From positions 26,360 through 90,359 of the forward strand of contig LNEE01000006.1 of NCBI GenBank assembly GCA_001464895.1: a stretch of DNA of 64,000 bases. Reading direction: 5' to 3'. The stretch is from Betaproteobacteria bacterium Ga0077532. Its GTDB lineage: Bacteria; Pseudomonadota; Gammaproteobacteria; Burkholderiales; Ga0077523. Shown here piece by piece: positions 49,363-63,914 of this stretch (position 1 is its first letter; each line of letters opens with the position of its first letter). The translations under genes were made by a program, and so were the position numbers. The notes under the pieces are model-generated. The model did not search any database and was not told the DNA's origin. It saw only the letters and a program-made list of their open reading frames with translations.

Positions 49363-49441
49363 GGCCAACGTTTGGCATGAGCGGCGTGTGGAGGCGGGTG
49401 AAGCCCGCTGTAACACGTCCGCTCGGTGGAGGGGTTATGCC
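49363..49441 (-). repeat. attC-like site C
   Basis: Minus strand GGCATAACCCCTCCACCGAGCGGAC...GCCGCTCATGCCAAACGTTGGCC; strong match to the conserved L''/L' regions. Confidence 0.8.
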
Positions 49442-50352
49442 CCACCGAACCCATAGTAGGCGCTGATCGCGCTGCCTAGAAGTCCGCCTGCGGCCGCAAC
49501 CCCTACGTCCCAGGCTCCTTCGGCCGCCTTCTTTACCATTGCGGCTATCCAACCTCTGACAGCCGGTCCGAGCATTCTAGTTCGAACATCGTCAGTGTTT
49601 GCGTCGGCTACGATCGCCTGGCGCAGCTCATGAATGTCCTCGTCTCTAACGTGTTGCGCCCGCAGCACCTTCGCAAGACTCTCCAGATCGTTGACTGCGA
49701 TGCTGTTGGTCACGCCCTGAATTGAGCCACTACCAACAACTATGGTCGTGTTGCTGCCAAACACCGCATTCCTGAACACTTCTGACACTAAGACCTCCTG
49801 CGAGACTTGTTTCATCCGGTCTGGCTCCGGTTCAAGGGGGATTCGATCTGACACCTCGAGAGCCAGCTCAAGGAGTCGCGACCTTACCTCCACCACCACC
49901 TGGAGCATCGCTCCAACGGAATGCTTACCCCAGGCACGCTCGATCTTGAAGCTTCTATCGATGCCATTCTTGATGTGCGGGTAGTACTCCGGTGCAAGTA
50001 CAACTGACAGATCTGAATCACGCTTCGACCATTCCTCGATAACTGCGATGCTCTGTGTCAGGTGCGTTGTTTCCAGCTTTTCTCGGAGGCGCTTCTCAAC
50101 ACTCATGAGAGGAAGAGGTTGATCGGTGTACCTGACCACGCCATTGCTGAGGTTTGCCATTACCGTGACCGGGATGATGCGGTAGGGTGGAAGGAGCGCA
50201 CGATCGGGATAGCCCTTCAGCTCACTTGCCACCCATTGCTTAAGTTCTTGCTCTCCCAGTTGATGAGCGAGAACCTGCGCTTTGAACAGCGCATTCTCAA
50301 GGCTTGGTGCACTTGCACTGAGCAGGTCGATGATTTCTTGCAGCAACCGCAC
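49435..50352 (-). CDS. AbiTii-domain protein (cassette ORF)
   Basis: MRLLQEIIDLLSASAPSLENALFKAQVLAHQLGEQELKQWVASELKGYPDRALLPPYRIIP. Confidence 0.85.
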   Translation of the reverse strand: MRLLQEIIDLLSASAPSLENALFKAQVLAHQLGEQELKQWVASELKGYPDRALLPPYRIIPVTVMANLSNGVVRYTDQPLPLMSVEKRLREKLETTHLTQSIAVIEEWSKRDSDLSVVLAPEYYPHIKNGIDRSFKIERAWGKHSVGAMLQVVVEVRSRLLELALEVSDRIPLEPEPDRMKQVSQEVLVSEVFRNAVFGSNTTIVVGSGSIQGVTNSIAVNDLESLAKVLRAQHVRDEDIHELRQAIVADANTDDVRTRMLGPAVRGWIAAMVKKAAEGAWDVGVAAAGGLLGSAISAYYGFGGA

Positions 50353-53022: not shown

Positions 53023-53889
53023 TTACCGACCTAAATAAATCCCGGCGACCTGTTCTCTGTTATGCCCGAGTTCTCGGCTGATGGCGAGCCGTGCCTCGCG
53101 GTCGATCTGCTTCTGTTCCGGAGTAAGGGCTCTCGACCGCGGTCCGCCCGCGGCAGGCGCAGCCCATCCCGTGAGTTCGCGATAGCGCGCCTGCGCGTAC
53201 TGGTGCCGGAGACCGTGTACGCGATGAATGCCTGCGGCGGCGCACTGGTGTTCGAAGCGATGTAGCTGCTGCACGTAGTTCCGGTCGGCCGGAATGAGGC
53301 TGCCCCGGCCGGCGAGGTGCTTCGCTTCCTGGAGGATCTGGCGCTGGGCCTCCGTCCGGATCGGGATCTCGCGTGCGCGGCCGCCCTTGGTCCAGTTGCT
53401 CTTCAGCGCGAGCTGGTCACCACGGTCAGCCCAGGCTGGTTGGATCTTGATGGACTCGGCTCGACGCAGACCGAATGCGGCAGCGAGCTTCAGGGATATC
53501 TGGGTGTACGGATCCGTGATCTTCGACAGGTCCGCGGCCGTCACCTCGCGCGCCTTGCTGGTGTTGGTGACGAACTGGCGTTGGCCAACGCCGTAGTGGG
53601 CGTTGTCGCGGGCGACGACCTTGGGCTTGCCGATCTTCTCTGCCCACCAGCGCAGTTCCGCCAAGCGGTTCTTGATCGTGCCGACAGCCAGGTCGGCAGC
53701 CTTCCAGCTCGCGACAAGGCGCTCGACGTGCTTGGATCTCAGGCTATCCGCGCTCATGTGGCGATACCCCAACTCTCGAAGTTGGCTGGCCACCAAGTCC
53801 AGCACGCGCTCGCGATCCCGCTGCGTGGCGAAACTGCCGTCGCGATTCCGATGGCACAACTGCTTCAGTTGAAAGTTCAGGTCCTGCAT
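53023..53889 (-). CDS. Tyrosine recombinase, Phage_integr_N/Integrase_1-like
   Basis: Catalytic residues visible: AFGLRRAESIKIQPAW (R), RVHGLRHQYAQARY (HxxR), ISRELGHNREQVAGIYL (H/Y). Confidence 0.85.
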   Translation of the reverse strand: MQDLNFQLKQLCHRNRDGSFATQRDRERVLDLVASQLRELGYRHMSADSLRSKHVERLVASWKAADLAVGTIKNRLAELRWWAEKIGKPKVVARDNAHYGVGQRQFVTNTSKAREVTAADLSKITDPYTQISLKLAAAFGLRRAESIKIQPAWADRGDQLALKSNWTKGGRAREIPIRTEAQRQILQEAKHLAGRGSLIPADRNYVQQLHRFEHQCAAAGIHRVHGLRHQYAQARYRELTGWAAPAAGGPRSRALTPEQKQIDREARLAISRELGHNREQVAGIYLGR

Positions 53890-55755: not shown

Positions 55756-58700
55756 GTGCAAGAGATACTCGAGTTAACAATTGCCAGAGACGCTGCCGCG
55801 GAAGAGATCGCCGCAGATGATGACTGGCGCCTCTTTAGGCCTGACGTCGGAGACGATGGCGCCTCCTACGGGAAGCTTCGCAGCATAGCGAAGCTACCTC
55901 ATGATGAGTCTGTGAGCCGACTTACCGAATTTGCCGCAACGCTCGACGTCTCCTCCCCACAAGGTCTGCGCGCGCGAGTAGCTGCAATGCTGCTGCGTGA
56001 TCTTCTTCAGATCGGTTGGGATGTTCGAATCACCGGCCACCATATCTATGTTCGACCCCAGTCATCGCGTCAGCCCCAAGAGCGGAAGGAGCAGATACGT
56101 AAGCAGTTGCTGTACGGGCGCGACAACCAACTAGCCGAGGATTCCCACAAGCGCTTCATCTACGGCGTTGAGCGACCAAACCGCTACTCCTCATGCAAGC
56201 CAATCTCGGACTTGATCGCCGACGGTAGAAGGCTTCACCAGCAACTGATTGTCATTCAGTCATTGCCTGAAGCCGAACGGATTGGTGCTCTGTCGTCGAT
56301 CTGCAGACCGTACCTCCAACTCGTTAGCGATGAGCGAGACCAGTTCACCAATATTCGACTCATCGACATCTGGAGGTACTTTCGCCACAGTTGGAGCATG
56401 AGGTATCGAAGTTCGCCAGGGCGGAACCTCTTCTACTTGGTTCGCGATGCCGCACAGCCCAACCATCCCGTAATCGGGATCTCCGCGCTTGGAAACACAG
56501 TGATGCAACTCACCCCGCGTGACGAGATGCTGGGGTGGACGATCGCCGGGCTATTGAAGAGGCACCGCGACGGAGTTGTCCGAAATGACGAGTTGCTCAG
56601 TGCATTTCTTCATCGCTTACGCGAGGACTATGAGCAAGTCTACCGAGATGACCTGCCGTTGATCGGGGTCATCGAAGCCGACGCTAACGACGAGACGCTG
56701 AGTCGCTTAGCCGTCATTGAGCACGATGAAGCGAGGAACCGGGAAGACACGTTGCGCTCGGACGACGATACCTACGTCCCCAAGAAAGATGAGTTACTGA
56801 CGCTTGAGGATCTGCTGGCAGCAACCACAACACCACTGTTTCGCTCCAAGCGGGCGCGCGCCCTTCGTGAGGTCCTCCGGGCCTATCGGATTATCGCCTC
56901 AGGGACTGTGGTTGGGATTGAGGGACTAGCTAGCACCGAGGACGGAGTGTGGGCGCTCAGTACAGTTCTCAAGCAATTGAAGAAACGTCACTCCGCCACG
57001 AGCATGATGGAGATAACGGTGTGCGGGGCTATCGCACCGTACAACCATCTGCTCGGTGGAAAGTTGGTCTGTCTGATGATGATGAGCCCGAAGGTTGTCC
57101 TTGACTACAAGCAGCGGTATGGAGGGACTGTCAGCATTATTGCAAGCAAGATGGCCGGCCGACCAATCGTCAAGGATCCAGGCCTCGTGTTCTTGGGTAC
57201 GACAAGCCTCTACACCGACAACTCCTCTCAGTACAACCGCGTCAAGGTTCCCGATGGCTCGATGCAGGGCCAGGTTGGAGAACTTCGGTATGAGAAGTTG
57301 GGAAGGACGATCGGTTTCGGCTCACCGAACCTCTCTGCGGATACCGAGCGCGGCTTGGCTGCGATATCTGTCATGGCAAGCGGCTACCGCAATGTCAACT
57401 TCGTCTTCGGCGAAGGACAGAGCCCAAAATTGAGACTCCTTCGCGAGGGGTTTGCAGCGCTCGGTCTAAATCAATCGAACCTACTCCAGCACGGCAGTCC
57501 GCGGATCGTCTATGGCGTTCACCTTGCGCGGAACGCTGTGCGTGTATTGTTGGGAGTCGACGATCGACCGGAGTATCTGCTGCCTCTTGACAACCCGGAG
57601 GCGGAGACGGCAATCGTCACCTATTGGATCAAGAGATGGCTGGCAAGCAGGCTAAATCATCAGCCAGCGATGCAGAAGGTGGCGGAATCTGTGCCACTTG
57701 CCGAGCGCGTTAGTCGCTTGATTCCAACGCGACGTGACAAAGATGAAATGCAGCGATCGCTGCTTTTCAATGTGATGGGGAGGAACGACAAAATGTCGCT
57801 TGATGTCCGCGAGGATGACCGGATCCGATTCATCAGACTCCTCTACAGAAATGAGACCGCGTTTGCTGACCACGTTTTGGTTGGTCGACTCCGTGAACTG
57901 AACATCAAGACCAACCTTGAGGACGTAGTCCGCAAGGTAGTGCGAGCGGGTGGCTCAATTGTCATTACTGGGAACGCGGGGGATGGAAAGACCCATGCAA
58001 TCCGCCTGATGGAAAAGGAACTCAAGGGAGCTGATGTCGTTACCGATGCCAGTGAGCTGACATACCAAGAAATTCTGCAGCGTTGGCAGGCCGCGCGGGA
58101 TTCCAAACGTCCATTCTGCATTGCCATCAATGAAGGTCCGCTTGTCGATCTTGTACGGCAGTACCGGGTCGAACACCCTTGGCTTGAGTCAGTTCGCGAG
58201 CAACTGCTGAAGTTGGTTTCATATCAACCACTGGAGCACGAGTTCGACGAGGATGGCGAGAAGTTTTCTGCGACGCCAGGCGAGACCGTGATCATCGACC
58301 TTAGCCACCGGCAGGTGCTGTCCGAGCAACTGGTCGGGAGCATGATCGAGAAACTCACCGACGATAGTTGGTACGAATCATGTGCCTCGTGCCCAGCAAA
58401 TCGCGAATGTGCAGTTACATACAACCGCAAGATGCTCCGCCAAGAGCGTCCGAAATCAAGGATGACAAAGCTCTTGACGAGCGCGGGAAGGAAGGGGCGG
58501 AAGGTAACGTTTCGTGAAGCATTGGCCTTTCTTTCCTATTGCTTGTTCTCTGGAAAATCCTGTGACGAGTTGCGCCAAGCGGGGACCAGCGAAGAGGTTC
58601 GCTACTACTGGAATGCCTTCGAGGGTGAAGGTGCCGTTTTCGAATTGCTTGATGCAGGCCTTGACCCGATTAAGCAAACCAACGCTCGGATAGATGAAGA

Positions 58701-59415
58701 TCTTTGGCGGGGCCGGTTCATGCCAGAAGAGTTCCTCGGCCACATTTGGTTGCCAGTCGAGCAGCGGAATCTTGATGAGATCAGCGAGCAAGAGAATCGA
58801 GAAGCGACTGAGGAGTTTGGTCAGTTGAAACGTCGCTGGTACTTTGAACATCCGGAGGGACACCTCCTAGACTTCTCAGAGGCGAATGCTCGATTCGAGA
58901 AGTTGCAGGACACGCAGGCGCCCATGGCGATTCGCCTCGGGATGTTGATCAAGTTAATCAATGCCTGGTGGAACCGTTCTTCCGAGCCGAAGGACGACGC
59001 CTTGCGATTGTGGACGAAGTTGACTTATCAGCCGCGTGGACGAACGCTTGCCATGGTGTCGGGGCTTAACGTCAACCGCATGAGACTGCGGCTATATCGG
59101 CCGCAACTCGCGCCAGTACTGCGCCGTGCATTTGGACGGCAACCTGTCACCCACCTACTGCTTGCTTCTGCCGACGACCCTCGCTACGCCCGCTTGGTGG
59201 TCGATCCGGAACTGATCGACGGCTTGATTCACGGTGCATTTTCAGACGGACAGACCCCCACAGTTAGGCGGCTTATTCAGTTCAACGACGCACTATCACA
59301 GTATGGTGATCGTAGTCCTGATGTACGCACTATCGAGGTGCTCGATCCTCAGAGTGAGATGCGAGCCGCCGTGGTGGTCGATCTAGTCAATCGTCGTTAC
59401 GACTCTGCCAACTAA
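55756..59415 (+). CDS. DUF4338 (DruA-like) - DptF-like P-loop ATPase fusion protein
   Basis: N-terminal half: EITVCGAIAPYNHLLGGKLVCLMMMSPKVVLDYKQRYGG...LVFLGTTSLYTDNSSQYNRVKVP (DUF4338-like). C-terminal half: Walker A ITGNAGDGKTHAIRLM (aa 739-746), CIAINEGPLVDLVRQYR, Cys cluster YESCASCPANRECAVTYNRKM (DptF-like). Confidence 0.75.
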   Translation: MQEILELTIARDAAAEEIAADDDWRLFRPDVGDDGASYGKLRSIAKLPHDESVSRLTEFAATLDVSSPQGLRARVAAMLLRDLLQIGWDVRITGHHIYVRPQSSRQPQERKEQIRKQLLYGRDNQLAEDSHKRFIYGVERPNRYSSCKPISDLIADGRRLHQQLIVIQSLPEAERIGALSSICRPYLQLVSDERDQFTNIRLIDIWRYFRHSWSMRYRSSPGRNLFYLVRDAAQPNHPVIGISALGNTVMQLTPRDEMLGWTIAGLLKRHRDGVVRNDELLSAFLHRLREDYEQVYRDDLPLIGVIEADANDETLSRLAVIEHDEARNREDTLRSDDDTYVPKKDELLTLEDLLAATTTPLFRSKRARALREVLRAYRIIASGTVVGIEGLASTEDGVWALSTVLKQLKKRHSATSMMEITVCGAIAPYNHLLGGKLVCLMMMSPKVVLDYKQRYGGTVSIIASKMAGRPIVKDPGLVFLGTTSLYTDNSSQYNRVKVPDGSMQGQVGELRYEKLGRTIGFGSPNLSADTERGLAAISVMASGYRNVNFVFGEGQSPKLRLLREGFAALGLNQSNLLQHGSPRIVYGVHLARNAVRVLLGVDDRPEYLLPLDNPEAETAIVTYWIKRWLASRLNHQPAMQKVAESVPLAERVSRLIPTRRDKDEMQRSLLFNVMGRNDKMSLDVREDDRIRFIRLLYRNETAFADHVLVGRLRELNIKTNLEDVVRKVVRAGGSIVITGNAGDGKTHAIRLMEKELKGADVVTDASELTYQEILQRWQAARDSKRPFCIAINEGPLVDLVRQYRVEHPWLESVREQLLKLVSYQPLEHEFDEDGEKFSATPGETVIIDLSHRQVLSEQLVGSMIEKLTDDSWYESCASCPANRECAVTYNRKMLRQERPKSRMTKLLTSAGRKGRKVTFREALAFLSYCLFSGKSCDELRQAGTSEEVRYYWNAFEGEGAVFELLDAGLDPIKQTNARIDEDLWRGRFMPEEFLGHIWLPVEQRNLDEISEQENREATEEFGQLKRRWYFEHPEGHLLDFSEANARFEKLQDTQAPMAIRLGMLIKLINAWWNRSSEPKDDALRLWTKLTYQPRGRTLAMVSGLNVNRMRLRLYRPQLAPVLRRAFGRQPVTHLLLASADDPRYARLVVDPELIDGLIHGAFSDGQTPTVRRLIQFNDALSQYGDRSPDVRTIEVLDPQSEMRAAVVVDLVNRRYDSAN

Positions 59416-59422
59416 GCATGCC

Positions 59423-60910
59423 ATGAGCCAAACACTCCGCAAGATTCTTAGTGATGAACTTCACGGACGGCACGGCTACCGCACCATGGAATCCAAGATT
59501 AAGCCCGTTCACATCGCCAACGCGTTAATGCGCGTTGAGCATCAGTGCGTTGGCCGGATGGGTGTCTTGGAGCAACTCTTTGTGGCCACGCACAAGAAAA
59601 ACAGCACCGAGCAGCGCGTTACTGCCGTGGAAGAGATGATCGCCTCTCAGAAGGAGCGGTGGGGAGCTCTCGGGCAAATAACGGACGTTCGTACGTCCCC
59701 GCTGATGACTAAGGTGTTGCCTCTCATTCGGACTTTGCTTGGTGCAGACGGGGCTGCATTCGGAAACTCGCCAGATATGTCCTCATTCTCCTCGCCGACT
59801 GCGCTTACGGTCACCGGCGATCCGTCGGACGATGGCGCAGGTGCATTCATACATCGACTCTGGGGAGGTAGAGGCGTCTATCGACAGGACATTCTTGGTC
59901 TCTTGGCAGAACTGACTGATCCAAACAAGAATGCGGCCGACATGGACGATCTGTCTGCGCTACTTTCTCCGCTGGTCGACAACATTCGCGAGAAGAAGGC
60001 GGCGGCCGACCCGGCCTCGGGCGATCTTTCGACAGGCTTTTCTCGAGTAGAACTCGAACTGCGCGCTGCCGCCGACCGCTTGGCGAACTACGAGCGAAAG
60101 CTCAAGCCGAACCCTATCGCGACGCTGCAGCGCATCGTTCTGTTGGCAAGCCTCTCGGTGTTCACGCACGCAGCGACACGGGCGCAAGAGCGAGGGGGGC
60201 TGGAACGTCGCTTCTTGTTGCTTGACGCTTCTGGCGACCATGATTCTGTTGTCGCTCAGGCTAGTACCTGGTGCGTTGCACAACTTATCAAGGACGCATC
60301 TGATTACCTTTGCATTGTAATTGGAGACTTGCTTGAGGAAGGGGTGCCTAACTGGCCGAGCGATCCCTTGGGTGCGATCAATGCCTTGTTGGAATCGCGT
60401 GGCCAGGCTCCTATCGACGGTCGCTCCAAACTGGCTCGTCGAATCCTCGAATCGATTGTCGATATCGACGACTTCGACGAAGTACGAAGGGAAGTGTGCG
60501 AGGAACTCATACGTGAGATAGAGGGCAATCAACGGCGCGGACTAGACGGCTACCTACGAATGCTAGGCATCCGTAGCGGATTTCTCTACCCGGTCCAGAA
60601 GAACCCCAACAAGCGCCTAAATCCATCCGACCGCACTCTTGAGGTGTTGGTGACGTCGACGATCGACATCGAGGCGCCACCGCTTGAGTATCGGGACTTC
60701 CTAGAGCAATTGAGTGAGCGCTGGTCAATAATTGTGGGAGGTCGAGTGGGGGATGCCGATTTGCTAGCGGGCGGCGGCGTGAGCGTCCCCGGAAGAGCGC
60801 TTCGCGACAATAGCGAACGATTCCTGGATCGCCTTGAGTCGTTGGGACTTGCAAGAAGACTTGCAGATAGCGTGGCGGTCGTGGGTCTCTTGGAGATGGC
60901 CCATGGCTAA
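59423..60910 (+). CDS. Uncharacterised second gene of the operon (DptG position)
   Basis: 495 aa, 7 bp after the fusion gene; C-terminal module NPNKRLNPSDRTLEVLVTSTIDIEAPPLEYRDFLEQLSERWSIIVGG. Confidence 0.6.
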   Translation: MSQTLRKILSDELHGRHGYRTMESKIKPVHIANALMRVEHQCVGRMGVLEQLFVATHKKNSTEQRVTAVEEMIASQKERWGALGQITDVRTSPLMTKVLPLIRTLLGADGAAFGNSPDMSSFSSPTALTVTGDPSDDGAGAFIHRLWGGRGVYRQDILGLLAELTDPNKNAADMDDLSALLSPLVDNIREKKAAADPASGDLSTGFSRVELELRAAADRLANYERKLKPNPIATLQRIVLLASLSVFTHAATRAQERGGLERRFLLLDASGDHDSVVAQASTWCVAQLIKDASDYLCIVIGDLLEEGVPNWPSDPLGAINALLESRGQAPIDGRSKLARRILESIVDIDDFDEVRREVCEELIREIEGNQRRGLDGYLRMLGIRSGFLYPVQKNPNKRLNPSDRTLEVLVTSTIDIEAPPLEYRDFLEQLSERWSIIVGGRVGDADLLAGGGVSVPGRALRDNSERFLDRLESLGLARRLADSVAVVGLLEMAHG

Positions 60911-63900
60911 CGATCTGAATGCGGCCATCCAGAGGAGGACCGCTCAGCTCATCCTCCTAGAGATTGAGGCTGCATATCTGCGCAATGAGTTTGGCGTCGT
61001 TGTCCAAGACATCGGTGCCGTCGATCGCGGGTATCTGGTTGCTCAGCTGGCAGATCTGTTTTCGAGTGCAAAGAAGCGTGTACGGGTCGCCCTCATTGGG
61101 GAATCGGCGGCCGTCGAGTCGTTTGCCGCGGCGTTTCCCAGGTACAAGGACTTCATCACCGCAGATGAGGAGGTGGTCGTCCAGTGGCGCAATCAGTTGC
61201 TGAAGACGATATTCGTAGTCGCCAATGGCCAACTGAATAAGCATGGCTCTCTTAAGGAGTTCTCTCGGCTTTCGGAGCAGCACCTCATTGCGAGAATGTG
61301 TGCCGAGGCTCGAGATAAGGCAGAGGTCCTGTGGCTCCGAACGCTATGGGATGCGTTGAGTTCTCCGCGGGGGCCTAGCCTCTCCTTGAAGTCGCTCGCA
61401 ACCTTCGCGCAAACGTTAGACCAATTCGACGCTTCCGAGCGATCTGTAAAGGCTTCTGCGTCGCTTTACGCGCTGGGACTCTTTCCCGATACGCATCTTG
61501 CAGAGGAGAGCACCGAGAGTCGAATCATCAAGCGTCTAAAGCAAAATGCGATTGTTTTGGCTCAGGTGTACAACGCGGCGCCGGAAGACTTGGACCGAAT
61601 GGCCAACTTCTGTCGCAGTTTGACCGGCCCGGACAAGGTCAAGTTCAACTCAATTCGTAAGCGAATTCGTAGAGTAAATCAGCGTAGTACCGATGATCTT
61701 GCGGGGATCGAACTTGCAGATGTGCAGACACTTTGGCGCGGCAAGATTGCAAGGAGCGACGACCGGGAAAATGGTGGAGGCGAACCAAGGGGCCCTGGAA
61801 AGGTAGCAGTGGAGTCCCTTGCTGCGGAGTTTCTGCTCGACGGGAAGACAGACAAACTTAAGGATCTTGCGGAAGCTGTTCACCAGTTGGCGGACCATGC
61901 GGAGGACGAGCAATTCTCCGGAGACGCCGAGTCTTTGGTGATTCCCGGCAACGATGGTAGCACTGGCGATGCTCTGCCCGTGGTCGACGTTAGTTCACCA
62001 ATCATTCAACTAGCCAAGTCTCGATCGACGGAGTCGGAGTGGGGCGGTGTGATCGATATTGAGTCCGACCGTTTGGAGGCACTGACGGAGGTCAGTTCAT
62101 TTAAGGCTTGGCAGCCCTTCAGTTTTGATGTGTTTCGTAGATTGCTTCTGCAGTTCACTGAAGCTGAACTCGCGCCCAGCACAGTAGTGGACTTGGCGGA
62201 CTCGCTAGCAGCTGCACGGCTCGATCTCTTGAAGCATTTGGGAGAACTGGCCACATCTCCTGTGACTGTTCTTGCCGGCCGAGAGGCGGTGTTGGCTGCT
62301 GCTGAGAGGTATCTGAATGGCTACGACCAACTTCTGAAGCAGGTAGAGGCGGCCTACTCTCAGATGTATGCGGACGCAGGCGATGAGGCTGAGACTCTCG
62401 TTCACTGGTTGCTCTCTATCGAGTTGTACGTCTATCGGCGCGAGGGGGACGTCACTGAGGTCTTGTTGTCACCGCTTCATCCGCTCAACCTGTGGCGTAG
62501 CGTAGCCATAGTCAAGGATCTCCAACTTCTCGGAGGGAAGTTGGGCCGATCAGAGCAGAAGACGCTGATCGCTGCTTCTGCCGAGGACTTGCAACTTCTC
62601 AATGTTCTGGTCTTGCCTCGCATTCCGGGCGTCGCGGAAAGCCCTTCACTGCTGGGGCAGGCGGGAACTGTCCATCACCTACCGCTTTTCAAGGAGTCGC
62701 CACGTGGCGTCTTGGAACCCGATGGAATTCACACGGTAGCGTATCTCTCATCACTCCTGGCGCAACTGCGGCCATTTGTCAGGTCTGGACTCCAAGTATT
62801 GTTTGTCAATGCACCGAGGCCAGGAAAGTTGCTCGAAGCAGTATTGAACGAGTTGGACTTCGACAATCCGTCGACCGAGGACTCCTTTTGGGGAGTTCAC
62901 TTTCGCTTTCGCTACACCTTGGCGGACACCAAGGGATGGAGTAGCGAGTTGGAAGAACTGGACGATCAATTGAAGGATCAACTGAAGGCGGGTCAAGATA
63001 GAGGATTAGTCAGTCTTTCCGTTCGGTCGGAACTGACGGGCTGGGGTGACCTCGTTCACGAGATGAAGAGTGTTCCTAGTCACCTCACCGTGGTTTTCGA
63101 TCCCTTTGAAGTTCGTACTACGTTGGTAGCGCGGGCAGGCTTGCATGATATGAGCCCGTGGATGCCAAGTTGCGAGTACCGTTACAACAAGCTCAAGAAG
63201 CAGATCGTCATCGTTCCGATTGCTGAGGAGCAAGTATTTGCGACCTATTTCTCGACAGCGAAGCTTGTGCATCGCGAACTGAAGCAGAGTACGGCTACTC
63301 ATCAGCCCCAGGTTGCGCAAGTTCGCTCTTGGCTTGATCAACTATCAGCGGCAAGTACTTGGACCGTGATTGCGGATCCGCACCGAGTTCTGATTCCGCG
63401 ACTCACAGATGCGGAGGTCATCGATCGTCGCACAGAGCGCGGGAGGCAGTTGACGACGTTCGGGCGCGATCTCAGTCCGTTCGTGAGAAAGCTCGACCGC
63501 CAGTTGCGAGGGACTCACTTTATCGCAGAGAACTCGACGCTTGAGGATCTCATTCGTGATCTAGTCGCGATGGAACCCAACGGCATCCTTGGCCTTGTGG
63601 GCGGAGATAAGGGCAAGCATGTGAAGGGTGCGTTGGGAAAGCTGATCGCAATGCGCTGGTACCGACGCATGGAACCGAGCGGCCTGTCGGTAAGTCTCGA
63701 TACGCAGAACGCGACGCGGTGGCTATCAGCGGGCGCGCTGTCGGGTGAACGTGCAGACCTTATTGGTATCCGTGAGGAGGGCGGGGAGCTCAGTATCGAT
63801 GTCATTGAGGTCAAGACGCATGATGAGGGTGTTCCCTATGTTGTCAGCAACGGAGTGGCGTCGGGGCATGCGGTTGACCAGATCCTCGCTACGTTGCACG

Positions 63901-63914
63901 CACTAGTACATTGA
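60903..63914 (+). CDS. DptH-like protein with C-terminal PD-(D/E)XK-like nuclease motif
   Basis: RNQLLKTIFVVANGQLNKHGSLKEFSRL; SPLHPLNLWRS; RADLIGIREEGGELSIDVIEVKTH near the C-terminus; 8-nt overlap with the preceding gene. Confidence 0.65.
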   Translation: MANDLNAAIQRRTAQLILLEIEAAYLRNEFGVVVQDIGAVDRGYLVAQLADLFSSAKKRVRVALIGESAAVESFAAAFPRYKDFITADEEVVVQWRNQLLKTIFVVANGQLNKHGSLKEFSRLSEQHLIARMCAEARDKAEVLWLRTLWDALSSPRGPSLSLKSLATFAQTLDQFDASERSVKASASLYALGLFPDTHLAEESTESRIIKRLKQNAIVLAQVYNAAPEDLDRMANFCRSLTGPDKVKFNSIRKRIRRVNQRSTDDLAGIELADVQTLWRGKIARSDDRENGGGEPRGPGKVAVESLAAEFLLDGKTDKLKDLAEAVHQLADHAEDEQFSGDAESLVIPGNDGSTGDALPVVDVSSPIIQLAKSRSTESEWGGVIDIESDRLEALTEVSSFKAWQPFSFDVFRRLLLQFTEAELAPSTVVDLADSLAAARLDLLKHLGELATSPVTVLAGREAVLAAAERYLNGYDQLLKQVEAAYSQMYADAGDEAETLVHWLLSIELYVYRREGDVTEVLLSPLHPLNLWRSVAIVKDLQLLGGKLGRSEQKTLIAASAEDLQLLNVLVLPRIPGVAESPSLLGQAGTVHHLPLFKESPRGVLEPDGIHTVAYLSSLLAQLRPFVRSGLQVLFVNAPRPGKLLEAVLNELDFDNPSTEDSFWGVHFRFRYTLADTKGWSSELEELDDQLKDQLKAGQDRGLVSLSVRSELTGWGDLVHEMKSVPSHLTVVFDPFEVRTTLVARAGLHDMSPWMPSCEYRYNKLKKQIVIVPIAEEQVFATYFSTAKLVHRELKQSTATHQPQVAQVRSWLDQLSAASTWTVIADPHRVLIPRLTDAEVIDRRTERGRQLTTFGRDLSPFVRKLDRQLRGTHFIAENSTLEDLIRDLVAMEPNGILGLVGGDKGKHVKGALGKLIAMRWYRRMEPSGLSVSLDTQNATRWLSAGALSGERADLIGIREEGGELSIDVIEVKTHDEGVPYVVSNGVASGHAVDQILATLHALVH

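Follow-up and report, generated by a model that had tools for sequence, protein, structure and literature searches.

Does the joining of a DruA-type (DUF4338) region and a DptF-like P-loop domain on one polypeptide reflect a lasting partnership, and what could the DruA part contribute to it? DruA is known as an antiviral protein of bacteria, and DptF as the nucleotide-binding subunit of a defence complex that cuts DNA. The question is raised by a forward-strand open reading frame (ORF) at positions 55756–59415 of the window, which denotes here the entire 64,000-nucleotide stretch analyzed from contig LNEE01000006.1 of Betaproteobacteria bacterium Ga0077532. The initial annotation had read the ORF as a fusion of DUF4338 to a DptF-type motor, both otherwise stand-alone proteins, and had argued, in the manner of a Rosetta stone, that both parts interact physically.

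Domain architecture of the fusion ORF

The ORF starts with GTG, encodes 1219 aa and is uninterrupted, and profile searches of the protein recovered the roughly 650 aa of DUF4338-type sequence and the P-loop domain that had been proposed (best models DruA1 and SspF, respectively). The long-form DruA part (aa 48–663, nt 55897–57744) matched the PADLOC DruA1 model with E = 1.8e-146, and the Pfam DruA profile matched aa 409–599 (E = 1.7e-27). The ATPase part (aa 711–947, nt 57886–58596) matched the PADLOC model of SspF (E = 2.9e-18) better than that of DndF/DptF (E = 1.7e-3). This domain content is far beyond chance. Both parts are connected by a predicted disordered linker (aa 653–690, nt 57712–57825; pLDDT <50). 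The Walker A motif GNAGDGKT lies at nt 57970–57993, exactly where it had been placed before, followed by AINEGP in a Walker-B-like strand with Asn (nt 58123–58140) and by the Cys cluster CASCPANREC (nt 58381–58410), which had also been noted and is likely a Zn-binding insert of the lid. The betaproteobacterial and Sphingomonas fusions share the cluster; those of three more distant genomes (G013, G048 and G473) lack it. An expected DruA size of about 400 aa holds for the short class of these proteins and not for the long class, a known size class of ~650–700 aa (the PADLOC long DruA model has 675 aa), which the DruA part of the fusion matches; its length is thus ordinary.

As such, the fusion is a described architecture. 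Rakesh, Aravind and Krishnan (NAR 2024; PMC10853773) named a “GNAT domain (annotated as DUF4338 in Pfam)” in a list of N-terminal additions to DndF. In their account, the DndF core is a derived form of P-loop kinase in which Asn takes the Walker B position, and the lid of some versions bears a Zn-chelating insert. The window protein fits this description with AINEGP and the Cys cluster, and it carries DUF4338 N-terminally of the DndF/DptF core on one polypeptide (nt 55756–59415), as do the published variants. From this P-loop-kinase description it follows that DptF, previously taken for a motor, is better named a nucleotide switch or sensor, and that the role of motor falls to DptH with its HerA/FtsK domain. 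The main text, as searched here, mentions the fusion in the list only and contains no split operons, no DruA name and no link to Druantia or NurA-HerA; our literature search found no assignment of DruA beyond “GNAT, DUF4338”. Less described than the fusion itself, and added here, are the split operons, the co-inheritance of both parts and the DruA-NurA-HerA operons.

The fusion gene is followed on the same strand by a DptG/SspG-like gene of 495 aa (59423–60910; SspG, E = 2.9e-14) and a DptH-like gene (60903–63914), whose probable ATG at 60903 overlaps the end of the former. The DptH-like product shares 79% identity with aa 1–1001 of the 1570-aa homologue in the most closely related locus (L003) and contains a PD-(D/E)xK-type nuclease motif (ERAD...EVK; 63747–63815) that is kept in bacterial and haloarchaeal DptH. 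The similarity to this homologue is lost entirely at 63905. From 63903 (CTAG) to 64000, where both the window and its host contig stop, lies the end of an insertion element; contig C32 ends in the identical 98 bp, and contig C10 contains a 94% copy with the start of a transposase-like ORF. The element was named IS630-like based on this transposase start and the TA-type junction. The nuclease motif lies upstream of the break and the HerA/FtsK half is cut off; save for one weak 56-residue match, this half was not found elsewhere in the assembly (62 contigs, 89.8% complete); intact relatives such as that of L003 contain both domains. The lineage hence qualifies as DptFGH-type, with the window copy as a damaged member. 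Because the element interrupts dptH before the motor domain, the window copy of the system is probably inactive, with the fragmented assembly as a reservation.

Fused and split DruA-DptF loci

The same fusion was found in nine other loci from Betaproteobacteria, Sphingomonas, other Pseudomonadota and Hymenobacter. In five of these, from other genomes (L003–L007), a continuous fusion of 1211–1238 aa with 50–79% identity stands before DptG and a full-length DptH (1561–1581 aa) with HerA. The F, G and H genes form one operon; the window holds F and G and, behind them, the H-like ORF. Hymenobacter canadensis (L010) and G013, G048 and G473 (L034, L035 and L051) carry more distant fusions; in L034 and L051, the contig stops before the G and H stretch would be visible. 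A survey for split versions, as had been suggested, revealed six loci in which DruA and DptF are encoded by two neighboring genes, in the order DruA-DptF-DptG-DptH (five haloarchaeal plasmids and Hymenobacter sp. HDW8), so that fused and split states exist even within the genus Hymenobacter (H. canadensis versus HDW8).

The initial annotation had named two outcomes that would speak against the idea of a genuine fusion, a sequencing frameshift joining two genes and homologues that never contain both domains. The latter is contradicted by the nine fused loci. A frameshift or misassembly would be compatible with the fragmented assembly (62 contigs) and with the two separate genes in haloarchaea; it was rejected because independent assemblies (50–79% identity) and distant loci show the same continuous ORF, and we consider its probability negligible.

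A plasmid search with the DptF half alone gave DruA-linked loci for all seven top matches, and protein-kinase-fused and canonical DptF scored far lower. Trees of the DruA and DptF parts gave the same groups (Beta/Sphingomonas, haloarchaea, G013/G048/G473 and Hymenobacter), although neither tree settles the deep forks and, for DptF, two joins may be due to long-branch effects. These data show co-inheritance of the two parts. DruA is fused or adjacent in all 16 loci of this DptF lineage, which were partly found with a DruA-containing query, and appears to be its constant partner. The Rosetta-stone argument is hence well supported by the fused homologues and the adjacent operon genes in haloarchaea, and suggests that DruA and DptF interact physically. 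On a Phocaeicola plasmid (L041, 5607–9758), a DptF-like region is fused behind PglW/MAD6-type kinase domains and followed by a G-like gene. No phage-borne version of the fusion was detected in a phage collection or among viral contigs.

Among known systems, SspFGH and DndFGH share with these loci the F-G-H gene order, an F protein with Walker A, a G-like C-terminal region and, in intact H homologues, the nuclease and HerA/FtsK domains. The similarity is partial, covering the C-terminal third of G and the HerA part of H, and here, unlike in these systems, DruA is fused to F, and the genome harboring the window (89.8% complete) yielded no gene for DndC (phosphorothioation). The methylation-associated defence system MADS is also similar in that the G-like protein weakly matches MAD7 and the HerA domain of an intact DptH homologue matches MAD8, but both scores fall far short of the curated cut-offs (25.5 of 410 and 18.8 of 175 bits, respectively). 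Druantia type I (DruABCDE) shares a DruA homologue, and a DruE1 operon lies divergently beside the split Haloplanus system; it differs in that the fused DruA belongs to the long class, DruB, DruC and DruD were not found beside the fusion, and the genome has no DruE of family-level score.

Possible functions of the DruA part

An AlphaFold2 model of the DruA part reached a pLDDT of 81 and a pTM of 0.79. Of the 50 PDB matches listed for it, 28 were GNAT or MYST acyltransferases as counted from their descriptions, none of the matches being significant; the modeled fold weakly resembles these enzymes, which agrees with the assignment to GNAT in the literature. The loop PYNxLLGGKL (YNHLLGGK in the window, nt 57040–57063) consists of conserved columns that are near-invariant across long and short DruA. 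This putative acyl-CoA-binding loop would be located where a GNAT holds acyl-CoA, and it resembles the corresponding MYST loop. The DruA profile did not match any of the 12 GNATs of the same genome, and neither the DruA sequence searched against solved structures nor the full-length fusion model (pTM 0.44) searched against the PDB gave a significant match. The initial annotation had proposed structure prediction as a check of the interface between the domains; the full-length model was too poor to show one. In the BFVD, the DruA model matched giant-virus proteins with a probability of 1.0 (Faunusvirus, E = 2e-7; Yasminevirus, E = 5e-6) and a phage fragment (A0A6J5SK47, E = 0.011).

We consider it reasonably probable that the ORF encodes one subunit, DruA-DptF, of a DptFGH-type restriction system with four modules (DruA, DptF, DptG and DptH) that damages invading DNA, with DruA as a permanent partner. 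We favor this reading because DruA, SspF and SspG domains occur in one operon, the fusion is conserved, split operons exist and the two trees recover matching groups, and also because the nuclease motif is conserved, DruA weakly resembles GNAT/MYST enzymes and SspFGH damages DNA elsewhere. Against it stand the lack of a significant structural match for DruA, the negative GNAT profiles, a full-length model with no usable interface and the occurrence of long DruA outside DptFGH. In such a complex, the DNA-binding DptG together with DptH, which would provide target recognition, nuclease and HerA translocase, would recognize, cut and track along DNA, and the P-loop domain of DptF would serve as a nucleotide-dependent switch. 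DruA may be a GNAT-like module that is kept on DptF to license or direct the complex; the chemistry would most likely depend on acyl-CoA. We infer complex formation and a DruA activity, and the division of labor would follow, by analogy, SspFGH (PMC8092258), whose three genes are all required, and PMC10853773.

Rakesh et al. (PMC10853773) proposed a role as backup effector for all N-terminal additions to DndF, including DUF4338. DruA would then be a variable GNAT toxin on DptF that suicidally acylates host proteins only if the main nuclease is blocked, and other DptF proteins indeed have kinase domains at the same place. We regard this as rather unlikely for the lineage studied here: an effector that is dispensable would be expected to be gained and lost repeatedly, whereas DruA was present in 16 of 16 loci, even if these were partly found with a DruA-containing query, and DruA also recurs in NurA-HerA operons. 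Still far less probable, in our view, is that DruA is a Mom-like nucleobase acyltransferase that marks DNA, so that its product would replace phosphorothioation as the self-mark for the FGH nuclease, with the same role in DruA-NurA-HerA operons and Druantia. This idea draws on the finding that SspFGH without its phosphorothioate mark damages the host's own DNA (PMC8092258), yet the genome harboring the window lacks a detectable DndC; on Mom being a DNA-modifying enzyme and a GNAT (PMC7824862); and on the association of DruA with DNA nuclease-translocases in two systems. However, published work argues that DndFGH frequently lacks an accompanying modification module. A single-sequence alignment of DruA with phage Mu Mom covered mostly the N-terminal part of Mom, which most aligned Mom relatives lack or have in divergent form. 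When nine Mom proteins were aligned for the comparison, the match shifted to 20 columns (E = 0.11), with 5 of 150 shuffles performing as well or better; it does not count as evidence of homology. If DruA did mark DNA, phosphorothioation would be just one of several self-marks readable by such complexes, and a Mom-like DruA would represent a new class of DNA restriction-modification, one based on acyl groups.

DruA in other operons and genomic surroundings

DruA was surveyed in randomly drawn genomes, 399 in one sample and 369 in another. Long DruA was found in four cases outside the genome of the window, three of them fused to DptF and one alone (G082). Six of the eight complete short DruA genes, from randomly sampled Pseudomonadota, belong to DruA-NurA-HerA operons (L024, L026, L043/L052, L045/L054, L046 and L047, the last of which stops before HerA), and our literature search retrieved no paper tying DruA to NurA and HerA. 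The other two (L025/L055, 3447–5501; L044/L053, 1–2310) are followed by a protein of ~700 aa with no Pfam or PADLOC match. In Paracoccus, a long DruA is located next to a GHKL ATPase and a DruE1 helicase, with the same annotated layout in Leisingera. Because long DruA also occurs alone (G082) or with GHKL ATPase and DruE, it is not exclusive to DptFGH.

DUF4338 thus recurs next to HerA translocases in two systems. As a constant partner of one DptFGH lineage, often joined to it covalently, that also occurs in DruA-NurA-HerA operons, DruA would be tied to HerA-powered nuclease machines, and this link poses the concrete question of whether it licenses, marks or inhibits the translocase-nuclease.

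In Haloplanus (L008, 2878–11592), a DruE1 helicase operon, whose next gene is a weak DruD match, is divergent to and adjoins the split DruA-DptF-DptG-DptH operon, and by annotation the same layout occurs in Halalkaliarchaeum and Natrialbaceae (L009 and L036). Large DruE-like helicases are encoded outside the stretches read in G473, G013 and G760 (the genome of L004). The genome of the window yielded only generic helicase matches near E = 5e-6 when searched for DruE, and DruE was rejected as an obligate partner of the fusion.

A gene for a WYL-domain regulator, likely the operon regulator, is located directly upstream of the fusion in L004 (8597–9682) and in L005 and L006 (8957–9865; in L006 by a matching ORF). 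In the window, an AbiTii abortive-infection gene (49435–50352) and a phage-type integrase gene (53023–53889), both on the reverse strand, precede the system, which is consistent with a mobile defence island. In the closest relative, a phage-type integrase and a D5-type primase-helicase are encoded upstream (L003, 1009–5629), as in a P4-like integrative element.
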